Virus record (IMG/VR): IMGVR_UViG_3300045974_000166
Coordinates: 62,001 to 126,000 of that record
DNA length: 64,000 nucleotides
Direction: 5' to 3' (one strand)
Origin: a virus
In this document: positions 30,679-62,566 of the stretch, in pieces
Position numbering within the stretch: the first letter of the stretch is position 1
Layout: every line of letters begins with the position of its first letter
Position numbers and translations under genes: made by a program
The notes under the pieces: generated by a model
Told to the model about the DNA's origin: nothing
The model's database searches: none
What the model saw: only the letters and a program-made list of their open reading frames with translations

Positions 30679-31749
30679 ATGACTAAGACTTTAAGAGAAC
30701 GGTATCTAAATAATGAGATTCTTTTGATAGGGGAAATTGTAAAAGATCAGACTACAGGTGAAGACGTAAAAATTCTTGACCGCGGTTCAAATTACGTTAC
30801 AGTTGAATCATCGGCGGGAATCCAGAAAAAATGGATACAAGATGTCATTTCCGAATCGGAACCGGAAACTAAAGTCGAGCACATAGTAGAGGAAGATTTT
30901 ACCCTTCTTGAATCTGGCCAAGTTAAACTTTTTGGGTTTGAAACTCAAAATTTCTGTGTAGAACTCTCGTCATTCATCATTGAACAATTTAAAGAATTCG
31001 ACGATTTATACTCCAAGCATCAGATCATCAAACTATTGGATTATGCTCTTACCGAATCTAATATTGACAAGAAGTACGAAAATCTAGAAAAGATTAGTGC
31101 CTTCTATAAAAATAATTCAATCCAAGAACCTCTAATTGTCGAAGGCCTTAAGAATTCAATTGAACGTCTTCGTTTGGCACAGATCGTAGCTTCTATTGCC
31201 GAAATTGATACTAAACCAAGCCCATACGAAACCGTAAAGGATGCTGTTACTGCTCTTAGAAAGAAGTATACAGATCCTAAGCAGTGGCAAGTATTATGGC
31301 CATTTTTCCGTATGGTAGATGCCTCGGGCATCACTGGTATTCTTCAGATGCTTCCTTTCAAACCAACAGCACAGACACCGGTAGGCCAATCATCTAGAGT
31401 AACAGAAGAAATTCTTTCTATGATGGAAGAAAATGTTGATGAATTATTTGAGTCTCTTTGCGTTGAAGATATAATGGAAACATACTCTGCAGATGAACTA
31501 GTTGAGGCATGGGCAGTCAAAGGTTTAGATGTACTTACTCCTGCCGTAAATACTTCCGTCCTATCTGATAGAACTAAGAAACTTGCCGATACTATGATTG
31601 CACGGAGAATGTTCCAAAAATCAATGCCAGACTTAACTTCAGATGATAAGAACACATTTGGTGAAACAGTTAACCGCCGCAAACTATTGGTAGCACAACT
31701 TGCACAAAAACTACTACCAAAAGTTAAGGCTCTACAGGAAACACCATGA
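30679..31749 (+). CDS. Head-region protein of unknown function with N-terminal SH3-like domain
   Basis: The 356-residue product begins with a small beta domain (residues about 15-58, GEIVKDQTTGEDVKILDRGSNYV...KKWIQDV) of the SH3/KOW type that recurs in phage head proteins. An acidic linker and mainly helical sequence follow, with a GFETQNFCVELSSFIIEQF segment at about 95. It overlaps the next gene by 4 bases (ATGA) and so belongs to the island of capsid-targeted proteins, but its own N-terminus lacks the TFxEYLxE tag. I do not recognise a function. Confidence 0.5.
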   Translation: MTKTLRERYLNNEILLIGEIVKDQTTGEDVKILDRGSNYVTVESSAGIQKKWIQDVISESEPETKVEHIVEEDFTLLESGQVKLFGFETQNFCVELSSFIIEQFKEFDDLYSKHQIIKLLDYALTESNIDKKYENLEKISAFYKNNSIQEPLIVEGLKNSIERLRLAQIVASIAEIDTKPSPYETVKDAVTALRKKYTDPKQWQVLWPFFRMVDASGITGILQMLPFKPTAQTPVGQSSRVTEEILSMMEENVDELFESLCVEDIMETYSADELVEAWAVKGLDVLTPAVNTSVLSDRTKKLADTMIARRMFQKSMPDLTSDDKNTFGETVNRRKLLVAQLAQKLLPKVKALQETP

Positions 31750-32897
31750 AAACATTTCTAGAATATTTAGCAGAGCAAGCAGAGTCAGATGGTAAACTCA
31801 AACATCTCCAGCACCTAGAAGATCTACATGTCGACCATGGCCAATCTGGCTTTAAGCACGCAGCTGGTGAACTTGACCGCGTAAAGAAACATGTAGAATC
31901 TGGTAAGACATCCTCTTCCCTAACTCAAAAGATTGATGGTTCTCCAAGTATTGTTATGGGTCATCACCCACAGTCTGGTAAGTATTTTGTCGCATCTAAA
32001 TCTGCATTCAATAAAACTCCAAAGCTTAACTATACTCATGCCGACATTGAAAAGAACCACGGCCATGCACCCGGTCTAGTGGAGAAACTTAAATCTGCTC
32101 TTGACCACGGCCATAAGATTCTACCAAAGCATGGTGTGTTTCAAGGTGACGTGCTTCACTCCGGTACAGATGTAAAGCATGGCAAGACTACTGCTACATT
32201 CAAACCTAACACGATCGAATATACAGCCCATGGTGCCGAAGCTGATAAGGTGAAGAAATCTAAGTTTGGTGTAGCTCTGCACACAGAATATCATGGCAAG
32301 ACTCTAGATGATATGCATGCCGAGCCTATTAAAGATCACTCTAAGTTTTCTCACCACGAAGATGTCTATTCGCCTTCTGTTGCATATAAGTCTGCCGGTA
32401 AGAAAATGTCTCCAGATGATAACCAAAAATTTCATGAGCATATAGCTGCTGCAAAGACCGCACACGAAAAGACTAACTACTCTCATATTTCTCCACACAA
32501 AGAACATATTAACACTTATATCAATCAAACAGTGAGATCTGGTGAAAAGCCAACTCACGAAGGATATGTAAAGCACTTAGAAGCGATTAAGACAAAAGCC
32601 GTAGGGTCTGTTAAGACAGAGAAAGCTAAAGCAGCTAAGGCTGATCTACATCAGTCTACAATCAATGCTGCGCAGGGTGATCATAAAGAATCTATTACTC
32701 ATGCTTTAAAATCTCACCATCATCTTCAGGCTGCCAAAGATCTGCTCGTGAAGCACATGGACCATTCAGCCGAAGGCCTTGAGGCAAAAATTAATGGTAA
32801 GAAAGTTGGCCCAGAAGGCTATGTGTCTAACCACGCAGGTAAATCAACAAAATTCGTTAACCGTGCCGAGTTCTCTCGTGCAAATTTTCAGAGATAA
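31746..32897 (+). CDS. Capsid-targeted ligase-like nucleotidyltransferase-fold protein
   Basis: The 383-residue product starts with MKTFLEYLAEQAE. This matches the capsid-targeting sequence of T4 internal proteins (MKTYQEFIAE then A), which the prohead protease cuts after the L/I-x-E motif; here the predicted cut is after E10. Residues 59-70 hold LTQKIDGSPSIV, with K62-x-D-G like motif I of ATP-dependent DNA ligases and RNA ligases. GVFQGDVL (about 138) and EGYVKHLEAIKTK (about 275) could be motifs III and IV/V. The rest is rich in His and Lys. Related proteins in aquatic phages are annotated only as a DUF (DUF6267 from memory, unverified). Ligase activity is a hypothesis. Confidence 0.6.
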   Translation: MKTFLEYLAEQAESDGKLKHLQHLEDLHVDHGQSGFKHAAGELDRVKKHVESGKTSSSLTQKIDGSPSIVMGHHPQSGKYFVASKSAFNKTPKLNYTHADIEKNHGHAPGLVEKLKSALDHGHKILPKHGVFQGDVLHSGTDVKHGKTTATFKPNTIEYTAHGAEADKVKKSKFGVALHTEYHGKTLDDMHAEPIKDHSKFSHHEDVYSPSVAYKSAGKKMSPDDNQKFHEHIAAAKTAHEKTNYSHISPHKEHINTYINQTVRSGEKPTHEGYVKHLEAIKTKAVGSVKTEKAKAAKADLHQSTINAAQGDHKESITHALKSHHHLQAAKDLLVKHMDHSAEGLEAKINGKKVGPEGYVSNHAGKSTKFVNRAEFSRANFQR

Positions 32898-32899
32898 AA

Positions 32900-33868
32900 A
32901 TGATAACATTCAAAGAATACCTATCGGAAGTAGCAATCAGTGGCACTGGCCTGAATGGCGAAAGACATTTAGCTAAATATGTGACACCACATCTAGGATC
33001 TTCTAACTTTACACATACTCTGGCAAGAAATCATGGTGATCTAGAACCGGGTTCTAAAGTTAAATTGCACAAAGTAGAAAACATAAAAGGTGTTACTCAT
33101 GTCCACGCAGAAGATGAATCTGGCCACAAACATGTAATACCAGTTACTAAACTACATAAACCTGGTACTCAAAAAGAAAATGCCGGCCATAAGTATGAAA
33201 ATGATTTTATCACTCATCTTAAGAAACATGGTGTTATGCCAGAACATTTGTCTGGCGCAGGGTCCACCGCAGGTACCGATTTCCAAGTAGAACATAGAAA
33301 ACTCAAAAGGAACCATGCTGGTAAAGTTCAAGGTAGTATGTTGAATGGTGAAACTAAGAATGGTGTGACTGGTGCTATGGGTCAGATCACAATTCACCAT
33401 GATCCTAAAAAGGGTGGCTGGCATATTCCAGATGATGCCCGTGCTAAGAGACCTAAGTATGCCGCCGAAGTTGAAAAAGCCGGTGTTTTGAAGCATATGA
33501 ATAAACACTATAACCCAGATAAGCATGACATTAAAACTACCGATTCGGGTAGAGCTCAATCTGTATACATTAAACATCCAAATCTAGAACCAGGCCATGC
33601 TTATCTGCAAGATCACCACGTGCATATCCTACAAGTTGGTGGTCATGGTACGTACCGTGTTGGCGATAAAGACCACACAGGCCATGGACTTCCAGCAATC
33701 TCCGGTAAAGGTAAATGGACTGTCCGTGAGAAACAAGCAGGAAATAAGAAGGCACGTACAGTTATGTTCCAACCAGATGGTAAAGCCGGTCTTGACAAAT
33801 CTCATGTAGATCTAGATAAACCAGATCATATCGAAGCATTCAAGAAGACTTTGGGAATTACTAAATGA
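32900..33868 (+). CDS. Capsid-targeted protein with PD-(D/E)XK nuclease-like core
   Basis: The 322-residue product starts with MITFKEYLSEVA, a capsid-targeting-like N-terminus with a predicted prohead-protease cut after E10. Residues 97-166 show the spacing of a PD-(D/E)XK nuclease: E100 in a helix (GHKYENDFITHLKKHG), D127 in GSTAGTDFQV, the pair E151-T-K153 (LNGETKNG) and Q162 in the following segment. The C-terminal half (about 205-310) is basic, His-rich and beta-like, without known relatives. The start lies 2 bases after the preceding stop. It could be a DNA-cutting or recombination enzyme packed in the head. The nuclease call is from motif spacing only. Confidence 0.5.
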   Translation: MITFKEYLSEVAISGTGLNGERHLAKYVTPHLGSSNFTHTLARNHGDLEPGSKVKLHKVENIKGVTHVHAEDESGHKHVIPVTKLHKPGTQKENAGHKYENDFITHLKKHGVMPEHLSGAGSTAGTDFQVEHRKLKRNHAGKVQGSMLNGETKNGVTGAMGQITIHHDPKKGGWHIPDDARAKRPKYAAEVEKAGVLKHMNKHYNPDKHDIKTTDSGRAQSVYIKHPNLEPGHAYLQDHHVHILQVGGHGTYRVGDKDHTGHGLPAISGKGKWTVREKQAGNKKARTVMFQPDGKAGLDKSHVDLDKPDHIEAFKKTLGITK

Positions 33869-34647
33869 AAACCACAGTGATGGCATTTGGCAGGATGTCT
33901 CCAGTTACGGCTGGCCACGCCAAGTTAGTACAGAAGGTGAAGGATACTGCTGCTGAGCATAAGGCAGATCACAAGATCATTCTGTCTCATACTCAAGATG
34001 CCAAAAAGAATCCGCTGCATGTTGATGACAAGGTTCGCTTTGCCAAGCATTACTTCCCGGGCACTCATATCGAGGGTGCCTCTAAAGAACATCCTACATT
34101 CTTACACCACGCTAAGAAACTATCAGACGAAGGCACAGAACACCTAGTCATGGTAGCTGGTTCTGACCGTGCCAAGGAATACCATGACATCCTGCACAAG
34201 TACAATGGCCCTGGTAAGAATCATAACTTCAAGAAGATTACAGTAGTTTCTGCTGGTGAACGTGATCCAGATGCCGAAGGCACCGAAGGTATGTCCGCTT
34301 CCAAACTTCGTGCTCATGCCGTTGCCGGCCACTATAAAGAATTCAAATCTGGTCTACCTAAGGGTGATGAAAAGATCCACAAAGAAATGTACCACAAGGT
34401 TCGCTCTGGCCTGAAACTAGAATGCTTCATCTATCGTGCTAAAGGCCTAGTTATGGAATATGCTGTATCCAAACATGCATCGGCAGCTGCAGAAGTTGAG
34501 CATTTACTTAGTAATGATCCTGGTAACAAAGATCTAATCGACTTAGCTCTCAAACATCATAAGCGTGCCGTTGCTGCTGCCACTTCTGAGACCGAAAAGA
34601 AATATCATTCAGACAAAATAGCCAAATTAAATAGACAATGCTCATAA
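33865..34647 (+). CDS. Cytidylyltransferase/NMNAT-like nucleotidyltransferase
   Basis: The 260-residue product has the nucleotidylyltransferase signature: MAFGRMSPVTAGHAKLV with T15-x-G-H18, the ATP-binding TxGH motif. It has a VMVAGSDRA strand-loop at about 95-103 and a SASKLRAH motif (144-151) equivalent to the ISSTxIR motif. Family members couple a nucleotide to a phosphate group, for instance in NAD synthesis. Residues 180-260 are an Ala/His/Lys-rich helical extension. It overlaps the preceding gene by ATGA and lies among capsid-targeted proteins, but it has no TFxEYLxE tag. Related enzymes occur near head genes of other T4-like phages. The substrate is unknown. Confidence 0.75.
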   Translation: MKTTVMAFGRMSPVTAGHAKLVQKVKDTAAEHKADHKIILSHTQDAKKNPLHVDDKVRFAKHYFPGTHIEGASKEHPTFLHHAKKLSDEGTEHLVMVAGSDRAKEYHDILHKYNGPGKNHNFKKITVVSAGERDPDAEGTEGMSASKLRAHAVAGHYKEFKSGLPKGDEKIHKEMYHKVRSGLKLECFIYRAKGLVMEYAVSKHASAAAEVEHLLSNDPGNKDLIDLALKHHKRAVAAATSETEKKYHSDKIAKLNRQCS

Positions 34648-34657
34648 GGATTTCATA

Positions 34658-36847
34658 ATGCAACTAGAAAAACACATTAACATCACAAAGACTCCAAACG
34701 GAGCTATTGTTTCTTTCGGCGGACAGGTTTGTCTCACTATCTCCGAGATGGGAACAGAATTCTTCTGGTCTGCTTCTCCTGTGTTTGCTAAGTTAACTTA
34801 TGGTGCATCCACTTTCTCCGATTTGCCAAGATCTTGGACTGGTCATTCTACAATGGCCGAAGCAATTGCAGATGGTCTTAACAAACTAGATGAAATGAAG
34901 GCATTCTATGGTATAGTAGATTTGGCCGATGACACGTATGGTGACAAGCTGAACGAATCGGAAGAACTAGACGAAGATACTTATAAAGATAAATCTAATT
35001 CTGCTTGGGAAAAAGTTCATGCAAAATCTAAAGGTCCAGTAGATAGATTTATCACAAGAGTTGCTGCTAGAGTATTAGATAAAACTAAAATTGATAGAAA
35101 AACTGGCAAAGTAGTTCAATCGGAAGAAGTGGTTGAACTAGAATTTGATCAAGCTGCTATCGTTGAAGCACTTGCCTCTATCAAGGAAGATTGCCGTGTC
35201 GAAGCACTGAGAATGTCCGATTCTCTTCTTGAAGCACAACAACTTGCCAATGAACTCTTTGAAGACATCACAGAAGAATATCTGAATGAATTGTCTAAAG
35301 CTACTTTGGGTTCATATGCTAAAAAGGCTGCTACAGATGCAGCATATAAAGAATTGAATGCTGGTCAAATGGGTATTAATAGAGCTGGTGGTTTTGGTTA
35401 TGCGGCTGACAAGAAAGCAAAAAAACGGCTACAAGGTGTCCATACTGCAGTTAATAAACTTACAGAAGTAGAAGAACTTGACGAAGTTTGGGCTGGTCCT
35501 AACCCAGACAAGCAACCAAAATCCTATGTCGCTAAACTGAAGGCTAAGAATACTGGCAAACAAGCTCCAGCTACCGATATTAAGTTCGATGACCATGAAA
35601 AACTTGGTGTGTGGAAGCGTAATGCCGGCCAAGGTGAGATGATTCTTCGTAAACACAAAAAGACAGGTCAGCACGAAATTGTTGCCAACAATGACCAGTT
35701 CTCTCATGTAGCATATCCTGACTCTGAAGCCGCAGGTAAGAAATATCTCAACTTGCTAGGCAAACTTCAAGAAGAAGAACTCGATGAATACTTTGTTCCA
35801 TATCTTTTGAAAGGCAAACAAAAGCCTTATGTGTCTTCTCTCGGCCCTGGCCATTATGAAGTTCTTGGTAATGTCGGTCAGGTAAAGGCGACATTTACCC
35901 GAGCAACACACGGTAAAGATGCTCATGCTATGGCTCAAAAACATCTAAGAGCTAAGTACAACGAATACATGGCCGAAGAAGTAGAAGTACTCGATGAAGC
36001 AAGATTCGGAATGGACGACATTGCCGTTGGTGGCACCGTTATCTATAAGACTCTGAAGGGTGACCACAAGATGTCTAAGGTACGCAACAAGGGTAATGGT
36101 TTTGCTCTGCACCTACAAGACGGTTCGACTATTCAGAATCATGCCGTTAGATCTACCGATGCTTCCGATTGGAAACACTTCGAAAACTTGAAGGAAGAAG
36201 TTCTAGATGAAAAGCTTGACCGCCATGGCGATTTCCACCGGTCTGTTGAAAATGGCATTTTTGCACATTCTAAACATCTCGATACTACTAAGAAATATTT
36301 GCATGACAAAGACACAAGAGGCAGCGACGGTCTCTCTATGCAATTAGCTACATTTGACCACGAAAAACATGCACAAGCAGCTGCTAAGAAACATGGTGGC
36401 AGAGTGGAACGTACTGATTTTGGAACTTATAGAGTTACCGAAGAAGTTCTTGATGAAGCAACTCGCCCACTATCCGGTGATGCATACTGGAAGTCCAAAG
36501 AAGTAGAGTCTAAGGAAGAATATCTTAAGGCTCAACGCAAAGCTCTAGGTCTTCCAGAGCCAGTGAAACGCGGCCGCGGCAAACCAACTAACATCGACCG
36601 TGACCTTCTTAAGACTCGTGCTCACTCCAATGTAGAGGCAGGCAAACGTCCAACAGCTGGTTTCGACCGTAACGAGAAGATCCACTTCGTTCGCCATCTT
36701 AAGGATCATCCAGACTTTGCAGAAAAGCATGTGTCACAAGCAGGCCGACCTGTTGGAACGACTAAGGTTGCCTCTCAACAACAAGCTTTGGTTAAGAAGA
36801 AACAAGACACGGCCTTCTCTATGTGGGCAGGATTGGGTAAGAAATGA
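34658..36847 (+). CDS. Polyprotein-like head protein with repeated EELDE/EEVLDE linkers
   Basis: The 729-residue chain is a string of small basic domains separated by short acidic linkers: ESEELDE, EVEELDE, QEEELDE, EEVEVLDE, KEEVLDE and TEEVLDE (near 34955, 35470, 35772, 35974, 36194 and 36439). Each contains L-x-E, the recognition pattern of the T4 prohead protease gp21. Residues about 208-275 carry an ELSKATLGSYAKKA module that recurs in three other genes here. Other modules look SH3-like or dsRBD-like. The last about 110 residues are basic, with KRGRGKP. I infer a head-internal polyprotein that may be cut during maturation. No enzyme motif was recognised. Confidence 0.55.
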   Translation: MQLEKHINITKTPNGAIVSFGGQVCLTISEMGTEFFWSASPVFAKLTYGASTFSDLPRSWTGHSTMAEAIADGLNKLDEMKAFYGIVDLADDTYGDKLNESEELDEDTYKDKSNSAWEKVHAKSKGPVDRFITRVAARVLDKTKIDRKTGKVVQSEEVVELEFDQAAIVEALASIKEDCRVEALRMSDSLLEAQQLANELFEDITEEYLNELSKATLGSYAKKAATDAAYKELNAGQMGINRAGGFGYAADKKAKKRLQGVHTAVNKLTEVEELDEVWAGPNPDKQPKSYVAKLKAKNTGKQAPATDIKFDDHEKLGVWKRNAGQGEMILRKHKKTGQHEIVANNDQFSHVAYPDSEAAGKKYLNLLGKLQEEELDEYFVPYLLKGKQKPYVSSLGPGHYEVLGNVGQVKATFTRATHGKDAHAMAQKHLRAKYNEYMAEEVEVLDEARFGMDDIAVGGTVIYKTLKGDHKMSKVRNKGNGFALHLQDGSTIQNHAVRSTDASDWKHFENLKEEVLDEKLDRHGDFHRSVENGIFAHSKHLDTTKKYLHDKDTRGSDGLSMQLATFDHEKHAQAAAKKHGGRVERTDFGTYRVTEEVLDEATRPLSGDAYWKSKEVESKEEYLKAQRKALGLPEPVKRGRGKPTNIDRDLLKTRAHSNVEAGKRPTAGFDRNEKIHFVRHLKDHPDFAEKHVSQAGRPVGTTKVASQQQALVKKKQDTAFSMWAGLGKK

Positions 36848-37284
36848 TTATTGACGAACTTAAAGTAACACTGGCCAACCACATTGAGTCGGCCCTGACC
36901 GTCTGGGGTTATCACTGGAATATCGAAGGAGTTGATTTCAACCAATATCATACATTCTTCTCTGAGATTTATAACGAATACTTTGATCAAGTAGATACGC
37001 TAGCCGAATATGTCCGAATTGTATCAAAAGCCGAGGAATATGTGAATGCTTCGGTTGATGTGGTGAAAGCTAATAAGACCGTGAAGAGTAAAATTGTTGT
37101 AGGTTCTAAACCAAAAGAAATGGTGAAAGAAATCCTTGTACTCAATGATGCTCTTCTAGCAGATATGGCTAATATGTTCAAATTGTCAACCGCAGCGGGT
37201 GAGCAAGGTTTGGCTAACTACTGCGCTGGTCAAATGGATGTATATGAAAAACTTCGTTGGAAACTCCTAACTGTGGCAAAATGA
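36844..37284 (+). CDS. Dps/ferritin-like protein
   Basis: The 146-residue helical product matches the Dps fold: H24 in YHWNIEG, H36, D51 and E55 fall at the spacing of E. coli Dps ferroxidase ligands H51, H63, D78 and E82. The D67 equivalent is a serine, with a glutamate one residue later. Dps proteins store iron, protect DNA from peroxide damage and often bind DNA. It overlaps both neighbours by ATGA, so it is produced with the polyprotein-like and capsid-targeted proteins. Whether it is packed in the head, protects DNA in the cell, or only uses the fold structurally is open. The family call is fairly firm. Confidence 0.75.
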   Translation: MIIDELKVTLANHIESALTVWGYHWNIEGVDFNQYHTFFSEIYNEYFDQVDTLAEYVRIVSKAEEYVNASVDVVKANKTVKSKIVVGSKPKEMVKEILVLNDALLADMANMFKLSTAAGEQGLANYCAGQMDVYEKLRWKLLTVAK

Positions 37285-37688
37285 AAACATTCAAAGAATA
37301 CCTAACTGAAGCCGAAGAGTTTGACTCTGGGAATATCCACCCCAGAGATCTACCAAAGCATCTTACTCCAGGTGAGATTAAAAGTATTCAGAAGCATCCA
37401 TACTTTAAAGAATATGTAGGCAACTATGTTCCGGGTGGGACGGTTGCTGCTCGTGTAACTAAGGACCGTGCTGGCTTCAAGAAAGTATACATGGGCAACT
37501 CCCAAGTCCTAGATACTACTCATGGTAAGATTCGGCGTATGGTGCAATTCGATATGAAGTACTCTGGTCACTCAGTCGACAATGCTCATTTGCACCACAA
37601 CGTAGATGGCAAGCGCCACACCCATGGCAATAAGAATATCTGGTGGGACCACATTAAATCACATAAGAACTACGAGAACGAAAAATGA
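37281..37688 (+). CDS. Capsid-targeted small protein of unknown function
   Basis: I choose the ATG at 37281, which overlaps the previous stop as ATGA; an upstream TTG at 37257 would add eight residues inside the Dps-like gene. The 135-residue product starts with MKTFKEYLTEAEEF, the clearest capsid-targeting sequence in the window, with the L-x-E then A cut pattern after E10. The mature part is basic and rich in His near the end (HLHHNVDGKRHTHGN). This resembles the T4 internal proteins IPI-IPIII, which are small, basic, packed in the head and injected with DNA. Its function is not recognised. Confidence 0.6.
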   Translation: MKTFKEYLTEAEEFDSGNIHPRDLPKHLTPGEIKSIQKHPYFKEYVGNYVPGGTVAARVTKDRAGFKKVYMGNSQVLDTTHGKIRRMVQFDMKYSGHSVDNAHLHHNVDGKRHTHGNKNIWWDHIKSHKNYENEK

Positions 37689-39934
37689 CAGATCAAATCG
37701 ACGAACTAAGCAACAACACTCTTCAATCTGTGGCAAAGAAACGTGCCGATCAGTCTAAAGAGGCAGGTGGTATTGGTGTGAATAATCCTACTCGTGCCAA
37801 GGCTATGGATCTTCTTCGGAAGTCCGATAATGCTAAGTATCGGCACACAGAACATCCATCTAAGGTAACTCCAAAGACTCCTGCTCCAGCACCTACCGAA
37901 GCCGATAAAGCAGCTCATGCTAAGGCAAACAAAGCCAAGGTAGATTCTCAGAACAACCGCGGCTATGGCGAAGGCCGATACATGGGTGATTCAGTAGAGC
38001 AGACGGAAGTTGAAGATCAGATTGACGAACTCTCAATGGACACAGTGAAGTCATACAAAGATAAGGTTAAAGCAAATCCTGCTCCATCTAAGACTACTCA
38101 CAACATTCTACACAAAGCTATTCGTAGATTTGCCGGTAAAGAACGTGCCGAAGATCGTATTCATTCAGATGAAATGAAGAAGATGCGTGAACGGCTAGGT
38201 CTGAAGAACGAAGAAGTTCTAGACGAAGATATTGGTTCTAGTATCAAGAAGGGTATCAAAAGCGTTAAACGCGGTTTTCAAGGTTGGGCAGATACAAGAA
38301 TGACACCCGGAAGTATTCAGAAAAGAACTAAAGAACTTACGGATGATGAATTGGCCGACCAAAGAGCTCAAAGAGATGAGCCAGGAAATACAGAACCCGG
38401 AAAACACTCACCTGTGGGTTTACAACGGCGACTACATGACAGAGAAAAAAGAAAACGTGATCTAGCTAATGAAGAAGTTATCACCGAAGGTGCTGGCATT
38501 GGTGATCTAGTCAAGTTCCACAAAATTGCCGGTATGAACGGTCATAGATATGCTCAAATATCTGGTTTCATTATGTCTAAGAAAGACGGTAACATTGATC
38601 CTATGACTGGCCGGGTTCATGGTACAGCTACTCACTATGTGGCTAAACTCAAGAAAGACCCACTGAACACAGTAAACTTCACCCCAGATGTTCATATCCC
38701 AGTTGGTGATGTGCATAAGGTAGATCAGTACGCCGAGATTCAGAACCACAAGGCCAAACAGAAGATGCTTGGCAAGATCAAGGGTGAGTCTATAGACGAA
38801 GAAGTTACATTCTCTGGCAAAGGTGCCAATGGTGTGCAATATAAAATCATCAAAACCGGTGATGATCATGCCATCCATGCAAACGGTAAACACATTGACA
38901 CCTACGGTTCTCACCAACGCGCTATGAGTGTTCTCAAGAATGAAGTTCCAGGTTTAAAAGCAGACCTAAAGGAAGAAGTTCTAGACGAAGATGCCGCTCA
39001 GAAGAATATGGGCCATGCAATGGATACTATTGAACCAAGCAAAAGAGATGCTGCTCGGAAACAATACGGAGCTGCCCGGTCTAAGGGTCTAACCCATGCA
39101 TCTTCTATTAGCCTAATGCACCAACGTTTTGGTGGCACAAATGAAGAAGTAGACGAAGCATTTGAAAAGCCAAAAGCCGCAAAGACTAAAGAAATTGAAA
39201 AGTCCGACAATGCTGCTCATGCTCGACTTAATAAGCCAATGCCAATTCAAAAACCAATACGAGTTGAAGAAGTAGAACAAATAGAAGAACTTTCTAATGA
39301 AACTCTTAAAAGTTACGTTAGCAAATCAAACAAGCATCGCACTCAAGCTTCGGTCGAACATCTAGGACAAGGTAAGTGGGATCCTAAGTTTGTTGATAAA
39401 ATGGATCGTAGAGCCGATCATTCCATAAAAGCTTATCATAAAATCAAGAATAAGCATTCAATGACTACCGAAGAAGTTGTAGATGAGGAAGTCAAAACAG
39501 AAAAGCCTAAGCACAAGGTTGGTGATACCGTTTGGGCAACTTCACCTACCAACAAAGCACTTACAATGACTGGCAAAGTTACAAAAATCGGTGTCACGCT
39601 AACTACCGTGAAGCATAAAGATGGTTCAGAAGCTCATTATCCACACAAACTTGTGAATAACGACTACGAAGTTCTACATCCAAATTCAAAGAAATGGCAA
39701 CGTGAACATCTAGAACAGACTGGGGAACTTCTCTCTTTGTCCGAAGTTAAATACATTCTAGAGAATGCAGCAGGAGGCGCTGGTGTCATTGCTCAACATT
39801 CCGGAGTAAATGACAGTGCTCCCCAAGGTACTGGCAGGGTTAAGAAAATGATGGGTAACAAAACTGATGCTGTAGCTATTGCTAAAATCATAGCAAATGG
39901 TGTAGCATCAAAAGAACAGAAAGAAAGTGAATAA
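37685..39934 (+). CDS. Second polyprotein-like head protein with gp21-type linkers
   Basis: The 749-residue chain repeats the plan of the 34658 gene. Three modules start with QIDELSNNTLQS, QIDELSMDTVKSY and QIEELSNETLKSY. Linkers include NEEVLDED, NEEVITEGAG (I-T-E then G, a classical gp21 site), SIDEEV, KEEVLDED, NEEVDEA and TEEVVDEE. Between them lie a KOW/SH3-like domain (GDLVKFHKIAG, about 275), a dsRBD-like domain (VQYKIIKTGDDHAIHANG, about 385) and another SH3-like domain (HKVGDTVWATS, about 615). It overlaps the upstream gene by ATGA. An internal-head or core role is inferred from linkers, basic composition and position between gp16 and gp18. Confidence 0.55.
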   Translation: MTDQIDELSNNTLQSVAKKRADQSKEAGGIGVNNPTRAKAMDLLRKSDNAKYRHTEHPSKVTPKTPAPAPTEADKAAHAKANKAKVDSQNNRGYGEGRYMGDSVEQTEVEDQIDELSMDTVKSYKDKVKANPAPSKTTHNILHKAIRRFAGKERAEDRIHSDEMKKMRERLGLKNEEVLDEDIGSSIKKGIKSVKRGFQGWADTRMTPGSIQKRTKELTDDELADQRAQRDEPGNTEPGKHSPVGLQRRLHDREKRKRDLANEEVITEGAGIGDLVKFHKIAGMNGHRYAQISGFIMSKKDGNIDPMTGRVHGTATHYVAKLKKDPLNTVNFTPDVHIPVGDVHKVDQYAEIQNHKAKQKMLGKIKGESIDEEVTFSGKGANGVQYKIIKTGDDHAIHANGKHIDTYGSHQRAMSVLKNEVPGLKADLKEEVLDEDAAQKNMGHAMDTIEPSKRDAARKQYGAARSKGLTHASSISLMHQRFGGTNEEVDEAFEKPKAAKTKEIEKSDNAAHARLNKPMPIQKPIRVEEVEQIEELSNETLKSYVSKSNKHRTQASVEHLGQGKWDPKFVDKMDRRADHSIKAYHKIKNKHSMTTEEVVDEEVKTEKPKHKVGDTVWATSPTNKALTMTGKVTKIGVTLTTVKHKDGSEAHYPHKLVNNDYEVLHPNSKKWQREHLEQTGELLSLSEVKYILENAAGGAGVIAQHSGVNDSAPQGTGRVKKMMGNKTDAVAIAKIIANGVASKEQKESE

Positions 39935-39936
39935 TT

Positions 39937-40263
39937 ATGTCTTATATGAGAACCAAACCGCGGTGGTGTCCCACGGTTGAAGCAACTGAACAAGGTTGGA
40001 TAAATAGTCTAAATGGAGAGCTTTTAGTTTCTCTTCGCAATTTGAAATCATTATTAGCCTTAGAACAAGCCGCACTAGATGCTGCTGCAGCAACTATCCC
40101 AAAAGAGGTCCCTATGCAAGTAATTAAAGAAGAAGTAGTTCCAGTTGTCGCCGAAGTTCAAGTACCAGTTACTGAAGAAACTATCAAAAAGCCAAAGAAG
40201 AAACAAAAAATTCTTGGTGAAGTAGTTGAATTTCCTGTTGACGCACAAGTTATTGGTGAATAA
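39937..40263 (+). CDS. Hypothetical protein with acidic/Val-rich tail
   Basis: The 108-residue product opens with PRWCPTVEATEQGWINS, has a leucine-rich helix (LLVSLRNLKSLLALEQAALDAA) and then a Val/Pro/Glu-rich tail with a KKPKKKQK patch. It overlaps the next gene as TAATG. No family is recognised. The position suggests a virion or assembly role. Confidence 0.45.
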   Translation: MSYMRTKPRWCPTVEATEQGWINSLNGELLVSLRNLKSLLALEQAALDAAAATIPKEVPMQVIKEEVVPVVAEVQVPVTEETIKKPKKKQKILGEVVEFPVDAQVIGE

Positions 40264-40655
40264 TGGCTGATACCAAAATCTCGGCTTTTACACCAGTTGT
40301 AACCCTTGGTCCAACCGATATATTTCCTATTGTACAAGGTGGCGTCAACAAATTTGCTACAATAGGGCAAATATCTAATCTAGCAGTTGCTGGTACCCAA
40401 GTTGTGACGACGTCGGCAGGAATTCCTGTAGCAGTTAGTTCAGATGTTGTGTTAGTTTCTTCGGCAGCCACACTAGGTTCTGGCACTGTTTCTGGAAAGA
40501 AATTAACAATTGTAGCTACTGGCCCCGGATCTATTGCATTTACTGCATCCTCAGTTCCAGTATTATATACTTATGCTGCCGGGTCTACTATGTCTTTAGT
40601 TTGGGCAAATTCTACTTGGAACATTCTGTCTATTTTTAATATGACACGTGTCTAA
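40263..40655 (+). CDS. Small structural protein with fibre-type N-terminal motif
   Basis: The 130-residue product begins MADTKISAFTPVVTLGPTDIFPIVQGG, then NKFATIGQI. This motif order (KISA, then PIVQGG) is the usual N-terminus of many phage fibre or spike proteins, where it serves as a capsid- or tail-binding part. Here only a short beta-rich region follows, so this is a stand-alone module. It overlaps neighbours on both sides by TAATG. It could be a small decoration protein. Function is uncertain. Confidence 0.5.
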   Translation: MADTKISAFTPVVTLGPTDIFPIVQGGVNKFATIGQISNLAVAGTQVVTTSAGIPVAVSSDVVLVSSAATLGSGTVSGKKLTIVATGPGSIAFTASSVPVLYTYAAGSTMSLVWANSTWNILSIFNMTRV

Positions 40656-40999
40656 TGATTCAAAACGACCAACATTTTTTGCTTCATGCATTTAAAGCGT
40701 ATGATAATCCTAGGATGATTTCTACTACCGAATTTGATGCAGATCTAAAAAGATTTGGTTACCTGAATACAATGCTTTCAAAGTATTCTAAAGATAAAGA
40801 TGAAGTTAAACTTAGAACATGTGTAAATCATATTGTTATAATTTCAAACTGTTTTTGTGAAGCATCTCTTGAACTCATAAGATATAAGATGCTTGAGGAA
40901 AACAGATCTATTACTGAGTCTATCATGTACTTTCTTAAAATGACGGATGACAAAGATTACGTGGATTTTAGCCTATTAAATACATTAGAACAACTATGA
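40655..40999 (+). CDS. Conserved T4-like phage hypothetical protein
   Basis: The 114-residue helical product has the pattern FKAYDNPRMISTTEFDADLKRFGYLNTMLSKY then LRTCVNHIVIISNCF. Small proteins with this pattern are frequent in T4-like phages near head and tail genes, without assigned function. It overlaps both neighbours by one and four bases, which indicates a tight operon ending before gp18. Confidence 0.5.
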   Translation: MIQNDQHFLLHAFKAYDNPRMISTTEFDADLKRFGYLNTMLSKYSKDKDEVKLRTCVNHIVIISNCFCEASLELIRYKMLEENRSITESIMYFLKMTDDKDYVDFSLLNTLEQL

Positions 41000-41166
41000 A
41001 CAACCAACAAGAATTAAAAGAAGATGGAGCAGTAGTAGCTCCCGGTAACGTTACTGCTGGAGTTGAAGGCCCAAAGCTTCCAATAAAACCAGCAAATGTC
41101 TTTAAGAGAGTTCAACTTCTTAAGAAGAAAAAAGATACGATCGAACCCAAAGTTCCATCTAATTAA
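40996..41166 (+). CDS. Very small hypothetical protein
   Basis: A 56-residue frame starts at an ATGA overlap with the previous gene and ends in TAA at 41164-41166. The product has a Pro/Gly-rich start and a basic C-terminal end (KRVQLLKKKKDT). The overlap with its neighbour and its filling of an otherwise empty 200-base gap support it as real. Its stop overlaps the late promoter motif before gp18. The function is unknown. Confidence 0.5.
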   Translation: MNNQQELKEDGAVVAPGNVTAGVEGPKLPIKPANVFKRVQLLKKKKDTIEPKVPSN

Positions 41167-45097: not shown

Positions 45098-46987
45098 ATG
45101 AATTTCCTAGACCAAATCTATCAAGACAAAGAAGAAGCTAAAGCCACTCTTACCAACGTGCTAAACCAAAAAGCATTTAGCCTACTAGATACATATGCCG
45201 ACAATTCGGAAGTTGAAGTAGTTACTTTTGAAGATGAAGAAGTTGCCAACGAAGAATTTGAACTTGAAGGTGTCGAACTCACCGAAGAACAACTCAACGA
45301 ATTTGAAGGTCTTAATTACACCATCGGTGGTAAAGTAGATAAAGATCATGTGTACCATGTACACCGTCAATCGAGAACAGCCAATGGCCCAGAATGGGAG
45401 CACCATGAACGCGACGTCTATCATTCGTTAGCCGATGCAAAGAAAGTTGCCGCAAATATGGGTGGTAAGTTTACAAAAACCAAAATCACTCGTCATGCTC
45501 GTACTAAACTGGCTGGTCCAGTTGGTAAACTTCCAGAAGGAGTTGAAGAACTCGACGAAGGTCTAGGTTCTCTTGCTGGTCTTTCCAAGCACCTTATCAA
45601 AACAGTTACTAAAGATCCATACTCTGGTCGTAAAGCAGGTGAACACTCAGATGTGGTGACTCACCCAATTAAGAACAAATCGGCACATCGTGAAGTACTT
45701 AACAAAGCGCTCGATGACGGTCATGTACCAGTTGTGTATGTAAACGGTAAGATTCACTCGGCCGGCCACTCTACTGGTTCTTCATATGGTCGTCCTGAGT
45801 ATCATATCCATGATGCAGACAAGCAAAAAGAACAAAAAGAAACTAAGTATCCAAAGGCCTACAAATCTGGTGGTAAGTATATCTATCCTCCATCACATCA
45901 AATTTCAAACCCTCGGTATAAGAAGGGTGATGCACTTGATCAATTGACTCCGGGTCATGAAGCTTCGTTCTACAAGGAAAACAAGGTCGAAGTTAAAGTT
46001 ATTCATCCAGACAAAGAACGCCTGGCAAAAATGAAGGCTCGTGGTGACAATCGTCCTCCAATGCAAGCCAACACAGTCAAGATGACTCCAGACGAAAAAG
46101 CTAAAAAGGGGTATTCTTACTCTGATTCTAAGACTGTTTCGCATACGCCAGAAGGCAACATGAAGGCAATCAAGGATGCAGCTGCACTTAAACTTGCCAC
46201 ACAGAAACTTGGTACCTCCGGTTCATCTGCCAATAAGAAGGCTATGGAACTTCATGCCGAACTTGGTAAACACCTTGCTGCTGGTAAACACACAGAAGCC
46301 ATCCGTGCTGCCAATGCTCTTTCCGATCATGTCCGTTCACAAGGTCTAGAAACTCATGCCGACAAGATCAAAGACTATGCTAGCACACTGAAAGATCTGA
46401 AGAATAACTGGGGCAACAAAGAATATGCTCACCAGAAACTTGCCAAGATGCGCGGTGAAAAGACCAATGAAGCAGAAGAATTGGTAGATGCTTTGGAAAC
46501 TATGCTTACTGAGATGTTGGACATCAATGAAGCAACTACGGTTGATAATACAGCAACAGCACTCCATACAGTATTGATCAATCAACATGCTAAAACTCCA
46601 GGTCATGGTCTAGATAAATTAGCTAATAGTGTTAGATCTTCTGTTTCTAAAGCTACATCACCTTTGGATCTTCATGCACGCCATGCAGCCGCTGTAAAGA
46701 AAATTGAAGCACATTACACAGAACACAATCTAGGTAAACCTGCTCTTCAAGGTGCAAAGTCTTGGCTTCCAAAAGCTAATGAAGAAGTAGATGAAGATGC
46801 CGAACAGATTGACGAACTCTCTAAAAAGACTCTTAAGTCTTACATCAAAAAAGCTAAGGCAGATTTTAAAGCTAAGACATCATATGACGACCATGACGGT
46901 TATGATTTTGCCCCAGGTGTATCACCTCAGAAAATGATGAAACGTTCAGAAACTATTGATGCTGCTAAAGCACAAGTAAAGAAATAA
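45098..46987 (+). CDS. Prohead core polyprotein-like protein (gp67/gp68 position)
   Basis: The 629-residue product stands where T4 has prohead core genes 67 and 68. Residues 1-70 are acidic and helical, as expected for a core protein, ending in ELTEEQLNEFEG. Beyond that lie basic modules separated by GVEELDEG, TNEAEELVDALETMLTEM, DINEA and NEEVDEDAEQ. The last module (QIDELSKKTLKSYIKKAK, ending in MMKRSETIDAA) repeats modules of the 37685 gene and of gp22. L-x-E motifs in the linkers suggest processing by gp21. I read it as a small core protein enlarged by cargo modules. Confidence 0.6.
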   Translation: MNFLDQIYQDKEEAKATLTNVLNQKAFSLLDTYADNSEVEVVTFEDEEVANEEFELEGVELTEEQLNEFEGLNYTIGGKVDKDHVYHVHRQSRTANGPEWEHHERDVYHSLADAKKVAANMGGKFTKTKITRHARTKLAGPVGKLPEGVEELDEGLGSLAGLSKHLIKTVTKDPYSGRKAGEHSDVVTHPIKNKSAHREVLNKALDDGHVPVVYVNGKIHSAGHSTGSSYGRPEYHIHDADKQKEQKETKYPKAYKSGGKYIYPPSHQISNPRYKKGDALDQLTPGHEASFYKENKVEVKVIHPDKERLAKMKARGDNRPPMQANTVKMTPDEKAKKGYSYSDSKTVSHTPEGNMKAIKDAAALKLATQKLGTSGSSANKKAMELHAELGKHLAAGKHTEAIRAANALSDHVRSQGLETHADKIKDYASTLKDLKNNWGNKEYAHQKLAKMRGEKTNEAEELVDALETMLTEMLDINEATTVDNTATALHTVLINQHAKTPGHGLDKLANSVRSSVSKATSPLDLHARHAAAVKKIEAHYTEHNLGKPALQGAKSWLPKANEEVDEDAEQIDELSKKTLKSYIKKAKADFKAKTSYDDHDGYDFAPGVSPQKMMKRSETIDAAKAQVKK

Positions 46988-49285: not shown

Positions 49286-49618
49286 ATGAATAAAGAATTA
49301 AAACCAATCCAAGAAGCATATAATCTTATGCTTGAAAGTTCTTTTGCCGCGGCAAACAAAATAGAGCACCCTGTCGAAAAACAGTGGCATCACTCAATTT
49401 TGTCTAAACACGGCTTTGAGCCAGATGAAGATTCAAAAGTAAAAACAGGTTTAGTTCGTTCATATAGTTATACTCATCCAAAAACTGGTGATAAAATTAA
49501 AGTAGCTACCGGTGCAAATGCTGATTATTGGGATGACAAGAAAAACAACAAACATGGCTATTGGCGCGAACTGGAATCGCATGCAAAGTCTCTAGTTGCT
49601 GCACACGAAGGTAAATAA
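49286..49618 (+). CDS. Small capsid-associated protein with EAYxxML N-terminus
   Basis: The 110-residue product begins ELKPIQEAYNLMLESS. The I-x-E then A pattern fits a prohead protease cut after E10. The same start (IKLISEAYMSML) occurs in the gene on the other side of gp21. The mature part has a strand set RSYSYTHPKTGDKIKV and GYWRELESHAKSL, a small domain common in phage proteins of unknown role. Position next to the protease and the shared N-terminus suggest an internal head protein. Confidence 0.5.
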   Translation: MNKELKPIQEAYNLMLESSFAAANKIEHPVEKQWHHSILSKHGFEPDEDSKVKTGLVRSYSYTHPKTGDKIKVATGANADYWDDKKNNKHGYWRELESHAKSLVAAHEGK

Positions 49619-49619: not shown

Positions 49620-50270
49620 ATGAAATTCCTCACAGAAGTATTAAATGATCCATTAAGTCTCTTGATGGAAGCTGGTGCCGATGGCAAAAAGAACTTGTAC
49701 ATTCAAGGTCCATTTGCCGTGGCCGAATCAAAGAATAAAAATGGTCGCATCTATAAGAAGGAAATTCTTGAAGCTGCTATCAACAAGTATGACACAGATT
49801 ATATCAAGAACGCCAAGGCACTAGGTGAGATGAATCACCCACCACGTCTGAATATTGACTACGAACGTGCCACCCACATGATCACAGAGATGAAACAAGA
49901 TGGTAACATCTGGATCGGTAAAGCTAAGGTGTTAAATACACCCATGGGCTCGATCCTGAAGGGTTTGCTTGAGTCTGGTGTGAATGTTGGTGTTTCTACT
50001 CGTGGTGCTGGTTCTATTACCGAAGCCAATGGTATTAAACATGTCGGTTCGGACTTTTTCCTAACTGCTGTTGATGCTGTATCTGATCCTTCCGGTCCAG
50101 GTTGCATAGTAAATGGTATCATGGAAGGCTATGAATATGATCTAGACTCAAAAGGTCAGGCGATCATCGAAGACATTGCAGCACGCGCCAAGAAAGATTA
50201 CGACAAGAAGGTACTTACGGAAGCACGTAAGATTGAGTTATTCAAACAGTTATTGGAAGCTATCAAATGA
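49620..50270 (+). CDS. 21: Prohead core protease gp21
   Basis: I choose ATG 49620, one base after the previous stop; an in-frame ATG at 49596 would overlap it. The 216-residue product is close to T4 gp21 (212), a serine protease that digests the scaffold and trims capsid proteins. H73 in ALGEMNHPPR, S126 in VGVSTRG and D152 in TAVDAVSDP fit the catalytic triad. It carries its own L-x-E sites: LLMEAG near residue 17 and LTEARK near 202, probably for self-activation and removal. Its specificity (L/I-x-E then A, G or similar) matches sites seen in gp23 and the cargo proteins here. Confidence 0.92.
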   Translation: MKFLTEVLNDPLSLLMEAGADGKKNLYIQGPFAVAESKNKNGRIYKKEILEAAINKYDTDYIKNAKALGEMNHPPRLNIDYERATHMITEMKQDGNIWIGKAKVLNTPMGSILKGLLESGVNVGVSTRGAGSITEANGIKHVGSDFFLTAVDAVSDPSGPGCIVNGIMEGYEYDLDSKGQAIIEDIAARAKKDYDKKVLTEARKIELFKQLLEAIK

Positions 50271-50593
50271 ACCATCCAGAAATTAAATTAATCTCTGAAG
50301 CATATATGTCTATGCTTAGACCAAAATCTTCGGAAGTTTCTTCTCAAATTACTGCTCTTCTTGAATATCATGCAACAGGTACAGTATCTGGGGCAAAATT
50401 TCATGTAAAATATGCAGATTATCCATCTAATGCTGATATTGCTAAACAGAATAAACATTTAAGTAAAGATCAAGTAAACGCAGTCGGTGATCACATTGAA
50501 GCTCACTCAGAGGATGATTTCACTGGGACTAAATCCATACAAAATGGGCATAAAGTTCATGTTACTGCAAACGGTGGTTATCATGATGATTAA
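50267..50593 (+). CDS. Small capsid-associated protein sharing sequence with gp22
   Basis: The 108-residue product begins EIKLISEAYMSML, matching the start of the 49286 gene, with a possible gp21 cut after the glutamate of LISE. Residues about 23-35 (SSEVSSQITALLE) are nearly repeated in gp22 (SAEVSSQVAALLE), showing exchange of modules between neighbours. The remainder (about 40-108) is a small mixed domain. It overlaps gp21 by ATGA. An internal or scaffold-associated head role is inferred. Confidence 0.5.
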   Translation: MNHPEIKLISEAYMSMLRPKSSEVSSQITALLEYHATGTVSGAKFHVKYADYPSNADIAKQNKHLSKDQVNAVGDHIEAHSEDDFTGTKSIQNGHKVHVTANGGYHDD

Positions 50594-50685: not shown

Positions 50686-51732
50686 ATGACCCTAGAAGAA
50701 CGAATCAAACAAATGCTTGAAGAAAGCACAAAGCAAGTAACTCCTGAAGTTGTTGCCGAAGAAATTGTTGAAGAAACTACTTCGCTTACAGAAGAAGAAC
50801 TTGATGAAATGACTCAAGAAGAATTTGATGCTATTGATGAAGAACAATTGGACGAATTGTCTAAAAAGACTTTGAAGTCTTATATCAAAAAAGCAGATCG
50901 CCAAAACTCTAACATGGATGTTGATGACCAAGCTGGTTTTAACAAATATATGAAGAGAAGCGATAATATTGATAGAGCAGAGGAAAAGCTAAATCCTAAA
51001 CGGAAAACCGAAAGTGCAGAAGTTTCTTCACAAGTAGCCGCCCTTCTTGAAGCTGAAGGTCTCTCAGAAGAATTCAAAATGCAAGCTGTAACGATTTTCG
51101 AAGCAGCTGTAACAGATCGCGTACTTCAGATCCAAGAAGAAATGGAAGCTGAATACAACGAAAAACTCGACGAAGCCAAGGCCGAACTCGAAACAAATAT
51201 TGATGGATTTTTGAATGAAGCTGTCCAGGAATGGGCAGATAATAATGAAGTAGCAATTGAGTCTAACTTCAAGATGCGCCTAGCAGAAAGTTTCATGGAT
51301 GGTCTTCAGTCACTATTGGCTGAACACAATATTGATCTGCCAGATGAATCAGAAGATGCGCTCGAAATTGCATTAGATGAAGTTAATAAACTTGAAGAAC
51401 AAGTCTCGAGTACAGATGAAGTGATTGCTGAATTGCAAGAACAAATCGACACTCTAAAGGCTGAAAAGATTCTTGAGTCATTCAAAGAAAAGATGACTGG
51501 CACAGAATTTGATCGCTTCGTTCAATTGACGGAGTCTGTTAAGTTTAAAGACGAAACTCAATATGCTAAACAACTCAGCATTGTGCTAGAGAATTTTGGT
51601 AAGATTGCCGCAAAGAAGGTAGAACAAACAGAACAGATCGTTGAAGAAGTTGCAGCACCAGTTGCTCAACCAATCGTCACCGAATCATTCTCTTCAGTTA
51701 ACCGCTACGCACAATATCTTGCCAAGAAGTAA
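50686..51732 (+). CDS. 22: Prohead scaffold protein gp22
   Basis: The 348-residue product is acidic and almost wholly helical, as in T4 gp22 (269), the main scaffold later destroyed by gp21. Residues 110-230 show the scaffold coiled coil (LQIQEEMEAEYNEKLDE, AVQEWADNNEVAIES), and C-terminal FSSVNRYAQYL is typical for binding the capsid protein. About 55 residues (roughly 54-108) hold an inserted QLDELSKKTLKSYIKKA module identical in design to one in the 45098 gene, explaining the extra length. It is followed by gp23 with a 40-base gap. Confidence 0.88.
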   Translation: MTLEERIKQMLEESTKQVTPEVVAEEIVEETTSLTEEELDEMTQEEFDAIDEEQLDELSKKTLKSYIKKADRQNSNMDVDDQAGFNKYMKRSDNIDRAEEKLNPKRKTESAEVSSQVAALLEAEGLSEEFKMQAVTIFEAAVTDRVLQIQEEMEAEYNEKLDEAKAELETNIDGFLNEAVQEWADNNEVAIESNFKMRLAESFMDGLQSLLAEHNIDLPDESEDALEIALDEVNKLEEQVSSTDEVIAELQEQIDTLKAEKILESFKEKMTGTEFDRFVQLTESVKFKDETQYAKQLSIVLENFGKIAAKKVEQTEQIVEEVAAPVAQPIVTESFSSVNRYAQYLAKK

Positions 51733-51772: not shown

Positions 51773-53116
51773 ATGGCAGTTCAAACCGTAGAACAATTAA
51801 TGGAAAAATGGGCACCAGTGCTCGACGCTGAAGGCGTAACTCCAATCACTAACATGCACAAACGTCAAACGACAGCTGTGCTCTTGGAAAATACCGAACA
51901 AGATATTATCCAAACTCGTCAACTCTTGTCTGAAGCAGCTCCAGGTTCACAAACCCAAGGCTACCCAACAGACGGTACCGGTCTTTCTAAGTTCGACCCA
52001 GTGTTGATCTCCATGGTTCGCCGTGCAGCTCCACAAATGTTGGCTTATGACATCTGCGGCGTTCAGCCACTACGTCAGCCTACAGGTTTGATCTTTGCAT
52101 TGCGTAGCCGCTACGGTGCACAATCAGGTGCTGAAGCTCAGTTCCTTGAAGCTAACGCAGCATTCTCTGGTGCTGCTGGTACTTCTCCTGGTACTTCTAC
52201 TGGTGCTGGCCAAGCTTTGTACACTAGCGATCCAACCAACGACTTCGTATTCTCTGACCAAGATCCAACTGCTACTACCTCGACAGCAATTGTTGCTCCA
52301 GGTCAAGGCCTAACGACTCAGGTCGGCGAAACTTTGGGTTCGACAGGTCCAGCATTTGCTGAAATGTCTTTCACCATTGAACAAATGTCTGTTACTGCTA
52401 AGACTCGCGCATTGAAGGCTGGTTACTCAGTTGAATTTGCTCAAGACGTTAAGAACCTACACGGTCTTGATGCTGATGCAGAATTGAGCAACATTCTTTC
52501 AACCGAAATCTTGTCTGAAGTGAATCGTGAAGTTCTTCGCACTATCTATCTTAGCGCTAAGGTTGGTGCCCAAGGAACTACTGTTGCTGGTATCTTCAAC
52601 TTGACCGCTGACTCTGATGGCCGTTGGTTGGCAGAACGTCATAAAGGTCTGTTGTTCCAAATCGAACGTGAAGCTAATGCTATCGCTCAAGAAACTCGTC
52701 GCGGTAAAGGTAACATCTTGGTTTGCTCCAGCGATGTGGCTTCTGCCCTTTCTATGGGTGGTATGTTGGATTATGCTCCAGCCTTGGCAAATGACATCAA
52801 CGTTGACGACACAGGCGCTACATTCGCTGGTGTTTTGAACAAACGTATGCGCGTCTACATTGACCCATATGCTGGTGTTGCCGGTACGAACTCTCAGTTC
52901 TTCATGGTTGGTTACAAGGGTGCTTCCGCTTGGGACGCTGGCCAGTTCTACTGCCCATATATTCCATTGCAAATCGTTCGCACTACTGACCCAGCTACAA
53001 TGAGCCCAGTGCTTGCTTACAGATTGCGTTACGGCATGGCTCGTAACCCATTCTTCAACACTGCTGGTCGTACAAATGCGTACTACCGTATTGCTGCTGT
53101 TCGTAACATCATCTAA
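51773..53116 (+). CDS. 23: Major capsid protein gp23
   Basis: The 447-residue product compares with 521 in T4 gp23 and keeps the HK97-type chain: PVLISMVRRAAPQMLAYDICGVQP, then TGLIFALRSRYG, EMSFTIEQMSVTAKTRALKAGYS and the C-terminal LRYGMARNPFF. The N-terminal propeptide ends in RQLLSE54, followed by A55, an exact L-x-E then A prohead protease site; T4 cuts after E65. Codon use is biased and GC is higher than average, as usual for this abundant protein. A strong terminator follows. Confidence 0.97.
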   Translation: MAVQTVEQLMEKWAPVLDAEGVTPITNMHKRQTTAVLLENTEQDIIQTRQLLSEAAPGSQTQGYPTDGTGLSKFDPVLISMVRRAAPQMLAYDICGVQPLRQPTGLIFALRSRYGAQSGAEAQFLEANAAFSGAAGTSPGTSTGAGQALYTSDPTNDFVFSDQDPTATTSTAIVAPGQGLTTQVGETLGSTGPAFAEMSFTIEQMSVTAKTRALKAGYSVEFAQDVKNLHGLDADAELSNILSTEILSEVNREVLRTIYLSAKVGAQGTTVAGIFNLTADSDGRWLAERHKGLLFQIEREANAIAQETRRGKGNILVCSSDVASALSMGGMLDYAPALANDINVDDTGATFAGVLNKRMRVYIDPYAGVAGTNSQFFMVGYKGASAWDAGQFYCPYIPLQIVRTTDPATMSPVLAYRLRYGMARNPFFNTAGRTNAYYRIAAVRNII

Positions 53117-60567: not shown

Positions 60568-60584
60568 GTGAGGTCGTTCCTCAC
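60568..60584 (+). other. Small hairpin before the transglycosylase gene
   Basis: GTGAGG and CCTCAC form a 6-bp stem with a TCGTT loop, ending 10 bases before the ATG at 60595, in a region with little ribosome-site sequence. It may affect translation. No T-run follows, so it is not a terminator. Confidence 0.35.
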
Positions 60585-60594
60585 ACAAACTAAG

Positions 60595-61403: not shown

Positions 61404-61437
61404 ATGAAAACAGTTATTGAAATTTAAATCTTCAACC

Positions 61438-61445: not shown

Positions 61446-61465
61446 GATAAAAGAAAGTTACCAGC

Positions 61466-62527: not shown

Positions 62528-62566
62528 GTTGTAATAATTTAAATTGGCTTTTAAAGGAAAATAGAA

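Follow-up and report, generated by a model that had tools for sequence, protein, structure and literature searches.

A capsid-targeting tag of the T4 internal-protein type in a putative cargo island of an environmental T4-like phage

Introduction

The gene for the large terminase, gp17, usually comes next after that for the small terminase, gp16, and the locus described here raises the question of what a run of eight other genes is doing in that place. The locus belongs to the IMG/VR record IMGVR_UViG_3300045974_000166 (192,097 bp; coordinates marked G000 count along the whole record), from which a stretch of 64,000 nt (the window) was analysed. The genome is T4-like, and the phage is known from environmental sequence alone. 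Here gp17 is found at G000:19480, ~72 kb upstream, instead of between gp16 and gp18, and its usual place is taken by the eight-gene run at 30679-39934 (all on the plus strand). Three of these genes begin with a ten-residue tag resembling that of the T4 internal proteins, and it is quite probable that the island is a cargo locus of this type, i.e. that its tagged products are packed into the head, trimmed and injected.

The T4 internal proteins IPI-IPIII and their capsid targeting sequence (CTS) were described by Mullaney and Black (1996) and are reviewed in PMC9026906. In IPIII the first ten residues suffice for packaging, with residues 4 and 7 serving targeting and residues 8 and 10 serving processing by gp21, the protease that in T4 cleaves after L/I-x-E (PMC9026906). 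According to the original prediction, a capsid-cargo island with such N-termini reached from 30679 to 41166. This is supported for 30679-39934, while nothing puts 39937-41166 in the cargo set: no tag, scaffold module or cargo homology was found there, and that part was excluded from the system.

Results

The three predicted N-termini are present, namely MKTFLEYLAE/Q at 31746 (383 aa), MITFKEYLSE/V at 32900 (322 aa) and MKTFKEYLTE/A at 37281 (135 aa), the slash following residue 10 (the mechanical open reading frame (ORF) of the last gene starts 8 codons earlier, at a TTG). A relaxed CTS motif was derived from T4 genetics (start, F/Y4, F/Y7, hydrophobic residue 8 ([LIVMF]) and E10, or ...[FY]..[FY][LIVMF].E), and, with both strands of the 192-kb genome counted, it matches 4 of 13,485 possible start codons, all four of which open long plus-strand ORFs, and none of its 1,075 internal Met codons. 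The fourth match, outside the window at G000:161018-161710, is a protein of 230 aa with a GTG start (VLTFKQFISE). The N-terminal 10-mer of the T4 CTS cargo system is thus carried by three island proteins and one encoded elsewhere, in a genome that also has a gp21-type protease and a gp22/gp23 head. All three island tags have the LxE site at residue 10, where gp21 would be expected to cut.

The tag of the 383-aa protein, which belongs to the family DUF6267, can also be followed through its homologues. In a whole-length alignment F/Y4 is found in 16 of 16 and E10 in 14 of 16 distinct N-termini, and positions 4, 7, 8 and 10 (plus Met1) are the most conserved of the tag, while positions 2, 5, 6 and 9 have high entropy; the homologues were fetched with six peptide patterns, one of which is the tag itself, and the set is therefore not fully blind to it. 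Since T4 genetics predicts exactly positions 4, 7, 8 and 10, their conservation supports the CTS reading. In the structure model of the DUF6267 protein, residues 1-17, which include the putative propeptide (31746-31775, plus strand), fall below 50 in predicted local distance difference test (pLDDT), while the body is confident. The tagged proteins are also basic (isoelectric points of 9.3-9.6) and rich in His/Lys, as had been predicted: the two large ones rank first and second of 131 proteins for His (10.4% and 9.9%) and the 135-aa protein ranks fifth. Taken on these grounds, the CTS reading of the three N-termini is well supported.

The original prediction had proposed to look for the tag in the rest of the genome and in related phages, and in the latter, too, it recurs, on unrelated proteins and almost only at gene starts. 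In loci fetched by homology to the island proteins, 80 N-terminal matches stand against 6 internal ones. A tag-first scan of viral contigs gave at least 83 tags, and the figures that follow refer to the matches listed. All 82 scorable tags have an in-frame stop at most 30 codons upstream (74% for control ATGs), the median ORF behind a tag is 178 aa versus 15 aa for random ATGs, and the tagged proteins fall into at least 46 unrelated sequence clusters. Among the bodies that could be identified are DUF6267, cytidylyltransferase, GNAT acetyltransferase, a lytic transglycosylase-type domain, lysozyme, HAD phosphatase and Acb1. The last of these, an anti-CBASS protein (L182:2104-2571, PF23474 E=2.8e-23), has the perfect tag MKTFREYLAE/A, which suggests that this Acb1 may be an injected rather than solely a newly made inhibitor. 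On another contig (L175:3445-9422) seven tagged genes lie between tail-sheath-like and portal genes, and one of them encodes an ADP-ribosyltransferase (PF18760 E=1.5e-12), like T4 Alt in kind. No defence family was found by PADLOC among 44 tagged proteins.

In T4 itself the ATG-start pattern recovers ipII, ipIII and gp61.1, and it has no match in lambda or T7. The T4 gp61.1 gene (AF158101, 18966-19130) encodes an uncharacterised 54-aa protein that starts with MKTFKEFIKE/D and adjoins the anti-DarT gene 61.2 (adfA); gp61.1 is possibly an unrecognised internal protein, judging by its N-terminus. As to the head genes that accompany the tag, the idea that gp21 is present in every tagged contig was rejected (phrog_207 in 7 of 19). 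A T4-type portal was found in 4 of a partly overlapping set of 16 tagged contigs, and Peptidase_S78 in none of the tagged contigs tested.

Whether tagged proteins end up in virions was assessed in three cyanophage relatives, by comparing annotated coding sequences (CDS) that have a strict tag with the published virion proteomes of S-CREM2, S-SCSM1 and S-SZBM1. For S-CREM2, all 4 tagged genes are represented in the virion, versus 52 of 219 ORFs detected by mass spectrometry (P=0.003; PMC10665884): gp6, an S-adenosylmethionine (SAM) lyase (PF23780), gp14, a kinase, gp136, encoded just after the small terminase, and gp154, a cytidylyltransferase. For S-SCSM1 (counted as ~290 CDS, 45 detected) this is 1 of 2, the NMNAT ORF91 (MKSFLQFLKE/A) being present and ORF30 absent (PMC9602691); ORF89-93 of this phage are all labelled virion protein. 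Pooled over the three proteomes, 5 of 8 tagged proteins are in the virion versus 1.5 expected (P=0.008). The S-CREM2 virion list was known before the exact motif was fixed and is not a blind test, while the test on S-SZBM1, where neither of two tagged proteins was found, was blind. The fourth tagged protein of the present genome (G000:161018) is 38.5% identical to S-CREM2 gp156, a virion protein.

Some virion proteins of these relatives have N-termini that resemble the tag. S-CREM2 gp13 begins with MKDLHSFLTE, in which the tag has leucine at position 4, and the Cas9-like nuclease gp12 (with gp13 at L261:4205-7047, minus strand) has LRFASFMAE/A near its annotated start, which is possibly misplaced. 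In the window, two small His-rich proteins that flank gp21 (49286-49618 and 50267-50593) begin with I/LxE-AY..ML, like the S-SCSM1 virion protein ORF89 (SLSEAYAAVY); this is possibly a second type of N-terminal leader, judging from a few cases.

The first gene of the island (30679-31749) encodes an untagged 356-aa protein, of which residues 3-57 match the C-terminal domain (residues 306-361) of S-SCSM1 ORF91, i.e. the C-terminal domain of the virion nucleotidyltransferase is here found on a separate gene, at its start. The next gene (31746-32897) encodes the DUF6267 protein (PF19782 E=6.4e-85; 286 bits against a gathering cut-off of 27). K62, D64, G65, E357, G358 and K369 are invariant in 21 homologues (K62xDG, E357GxV and K369xV), and these motifs presumably correspond to ligase motifs I, IV and V. 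With KxDG, EGxV and the motif V lysine it has the motif set of a covalent nucleotidyltransferase and is a candidate for a ligase-like one; the top four PDB fold hits of its model are archaeal DNA ligases, weak ones (E=0.05-0.15, template modelling (TM) score about 0.2).

The 322-aa tagged protein (32900-33868) is a candidate PD-(D/E)XK-like nuclease (GTDF ... GETKN) with E151 and K153 invariant, and its best fold hit is the HhaI endonuclease (E=0.01, prob 0.90); no match was found among named phages. Its slot is swappable: L010, L011 and L017, three sister islands, keep the genes on either side and have an unrelated family at this position. The swapped-in proteins have a different leader, with LTE/G, LTE/A or LCE/S right before the conserved body, and a swap within the same slot that keeps L-x-E before the body is what a cargo system predicts. 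In sister island L017 (8900-10963) an ORF-containing insert interrupts the DUF6267 gene, and a small GIY-YIG-like ORF (MKFGFIYLWKDTKRNKFYLGSHQG) follows the next cargo gene; we propose that an intron or homing endonuclease may have invaded this island.

A HIGH-type nucleotidyltransferase (NMNAT/cytidylyltransferase-like, 33865-34647, phrog_3041 E=2e-60) follows. It is untagged, while its homologues in S-CREM2 (gp154, MKNFSSFLTE/A) and S-SCSM1 (MKSFLQFLKE/A) are tagged and virion-borne, and that of S-SZBM1 has a tag that is one residue shorter (MRFRQFIIE/A). Sequence searches of PDB with this protein and with the DUF6267 and nuclease-like family profiles gave no credible homologue. The Dps/ferritin-like protein (146 aa, 36844-37284), which has the ferritin-like profile (PF00210 E=1.8e-14), is also untagged. 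The predicted nucleotidyltransferase and Dps-like genes are thus in the island, both lacking the tag, and the ligase-like gene is not a neighbour to which the tagged genes are coupled, being itself the first of them. The 135-aa tagged protein (37281-37688) could not be assigned to a family and is retained in the sister islands; when it was queried with the sister-type tag, no match was found among named phages. The coupling of the genes by ATGA overlaps, as predicted, is seen at 31746, 33865, 36844, 37281 and 37685, and does not extend to 32900 and 34658, which follow gaps of 2 and 10 nt.

The remaining two island genes encode long proteins of 729 aa (34658-36847) and 749 aa (37685-39934), which, like a 629-aa protein encoded between portal and protease (45098-46987), share with the scaffold gp22 a module of ~60 residues starting with xIDELSxxTLxSYxxKA. 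The 729-aa protein has one module (residues 203-259) as well as recurring acidic linkers of the form [LI][DEN]E, and the 749-aa protein has three modules (IDELS..TL.SY). In the 629-aa protein, a candidate core protein, the module is C-terminal, and in gp22 it comprises residues 49-108 (50830-51009). Relatives have one to five module copies in proteins encoded near the same cassette, while no match to the module was found among named phages. Acidic [LI][DE]E sites number 12 and 9 in the two long island proteins versus ~0.4 in shuffled sequence, an excess that may be overstated since shuffling ignores clustered acidic runs. The shared module could be a second route into the core, where the long proteins would be cut by gp21.

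The T4-type head gene set lies within the window. It includes the small terminase (30191), the portal (43466), the gp21-type head maturation protease (49623-50270, phrog_207 E=3.3e-67), gp22 (50686-51732, phrog_237 E=1e-47) and the major capsid protein gp23 (51773-53116, phrog_138 E=1e-139), which has a candidate propeptide ending in LLSE/AAP, all three of the latter on the plus strand. The genes gp18 (41201) and gp19 (42911) are named by position and following the original prediction. Further downstream (60568-64000 and, continuing, L006:1-5204, i.e. G000:124001-129204), an SLT transglycosylase, a radical-SAM protein (PF04055 E=4.8e-15), a C39-peptidase ABC exporter (PF03412, PF00005) and a CBM9-like exported protein are encoded in a row, across which the GC content is lower. 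From its gene content this looks like a host-derived cassette for the maturation and export of a modified peptide in a T4-like phage.

Discussion

Following these results, it seems that the tagged proteins are likely packaged in this phage. The N-terminal tag, through its aromatic residues 4 and 7, would draw each tagged protein into the growing prohead core, where gp21 would cleave after [LI]xE and strip off the propeptide of ten residues; the basic mature enzymes would stay in the head and enter the host together with the DNA. The mature cargo would then consist of the ligase-like DUF6267 protein, the exchangeable nuclease-like protein and the 135-aa protein. It is probable that this set also includes the two long proteins, by way of the module shared with gp22, and the untagged nucleotidyltransferase and Dps. 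Because T4 IPI acts against restriction and IPIII meets a host-specific need (PMC9391042), counter-defence, or the protection, processing or end handling of DNA, in the first minutes of infection is, by analogy, the most likely role of the cargo.

Several observations weigh against this reading. The S-SZBM1 genes 191 and 192 (105 and 165 aa; PMC9146016) and S-SCSM1 ORF30 (106 aa) are strictly tagged and their products were not detected in the virion, although all three would be small enough to be lost in shallow spectra. The S-CREM2 authors caution that some non-virion protein may have been carried over (PMC10665884). DUF6267 is in none of the virion protein lists compared, some marine cyanophage DUF6267 proteins are untagged, and the untagged one of S-SZBM1 (gene 141) was likewise undetected. 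The virion tests concern relatives, the phage itself being known as a sequence and not as a virion. Finally, most tagged contigs are fragments, but three large ones (88-117 kb) also lack every T4 head gene tested.

It could be argued that the tag has nothing to do with the head and is a degron or a membrane or chaperone signal, its likeness to the CTS being coincidental, for which the large tagged contigs that have no detectable gp21, gp23 or T4 portal could be cited; given the register-exact match to the residues essential in T4, the recovery of ipII and ipIII and the enrichment in virions, this is very improbable. The tag could also be a core-association peptide of scaffold or assembly factors that are degraded, or leave the head, as it matures, none being delivered. 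Such a role would fit the module that the long proteins share with gp22 and the position of the region among head and tail genes, whereas tagged Acb1, ADP-ribosyltransferase, SAM lyase and nucleotidyltransferases have no evident role in assembly, several tagged proteins persist in finished virions, and the tagged internal proteins of T4 are injected (PMC9026906, PMC9391042), which makes it improbable, if less so than a signal unrelated to the head.

The closest competitor is a narrower version of the cargo locus, in which the three tagged proteins are packaged alone and the nucleotidyltransferase, Dps and the long proteins act late inside the cell, sharing the operon for convenience. None of these has the N-terminal tag here, and Dps has no virion evidence in any dataset analysed; on the other hand, homologues of the nucleotidyltransferase are tagged virion proteins, and the long proteins have both the gp22 module and a high density of [LI][DE]E sites, so that we consider this restriction rather unlikely. 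In the opposite direction, the proposed cargo of the island could be one instance of something wider: the tag may serve T4-like phages in general as a delivery code for swappable effectors injected for the first minutes, with the gp22 module as a second address on precursors that gp21 would cut into several capsid proteins. This extension is tentative and falls somewhat short of probable, and with the same reserve its effectors might include Acb1, ADP-ribosyltransferases, SAM lyase, nucleases, ligases and nucleotidyltransferases.

Phage-injected proteins are normally found one by one via proteomics. If the reading is correct, a tag recognisable in the sequence would allow environmental phage genomes to be searched for candidate injected effectors and anti-defence proteins, would explain the presence of nucleotidyltransferases and SAM lyase in cyanophage virions, and would make the function of T4-type internal proteins testable across many hosts. 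The tag may therefore offer a simple way to spot phage proteins delivered into bacteria.

Protein packaging in phage heads has several precedents, among them the Dar proteins of P1, and the packaged proteins of P1, phiKZ and SPN3US have other propeptides and belong to other head lineages. The ejection proteins of the giant phages phiKZ and SPN3US are similar in being packed in the head, and several of them have propeptides that a prohead protease cleaves off (PMC9026906, PMC7411985). Homologues of the island nucleotidyltransferase have been detected in the virions of the cyanophages S-CREM2, S-SCSM1, S-SZBM1 and S-SM1 (PMC10665884, PMC9602691, PMC9146016, PMC3037559), and the available portions of these papers do not link it to a targeting tag; the island protein differs in being untagged and in having its C-terminal domain on another gene. 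T4 Alt is likewise a head-packed enzyme that is trimmed by gp21 and injected, and a tagged ADP-ribosyltransferase is encoded on L175, while none was found in the island. Family searches of the island proteins matched no T4 internal protein family. What the island has in common with the T4 internal proteins is the 10-residue N-terminal tag close to MKTYQEFIAE, the gp21 site at residue 10 and the basic cargo, whereas its putative cargo is enzyme-like (with ligase-like, nuclease-like and nucleotidyltransferase proteins) and larger (135-383 aa), and the genes for it follow one another between gp16 and gp18. The island is, in short, best read as a variation on the known internal-protein system of T4.

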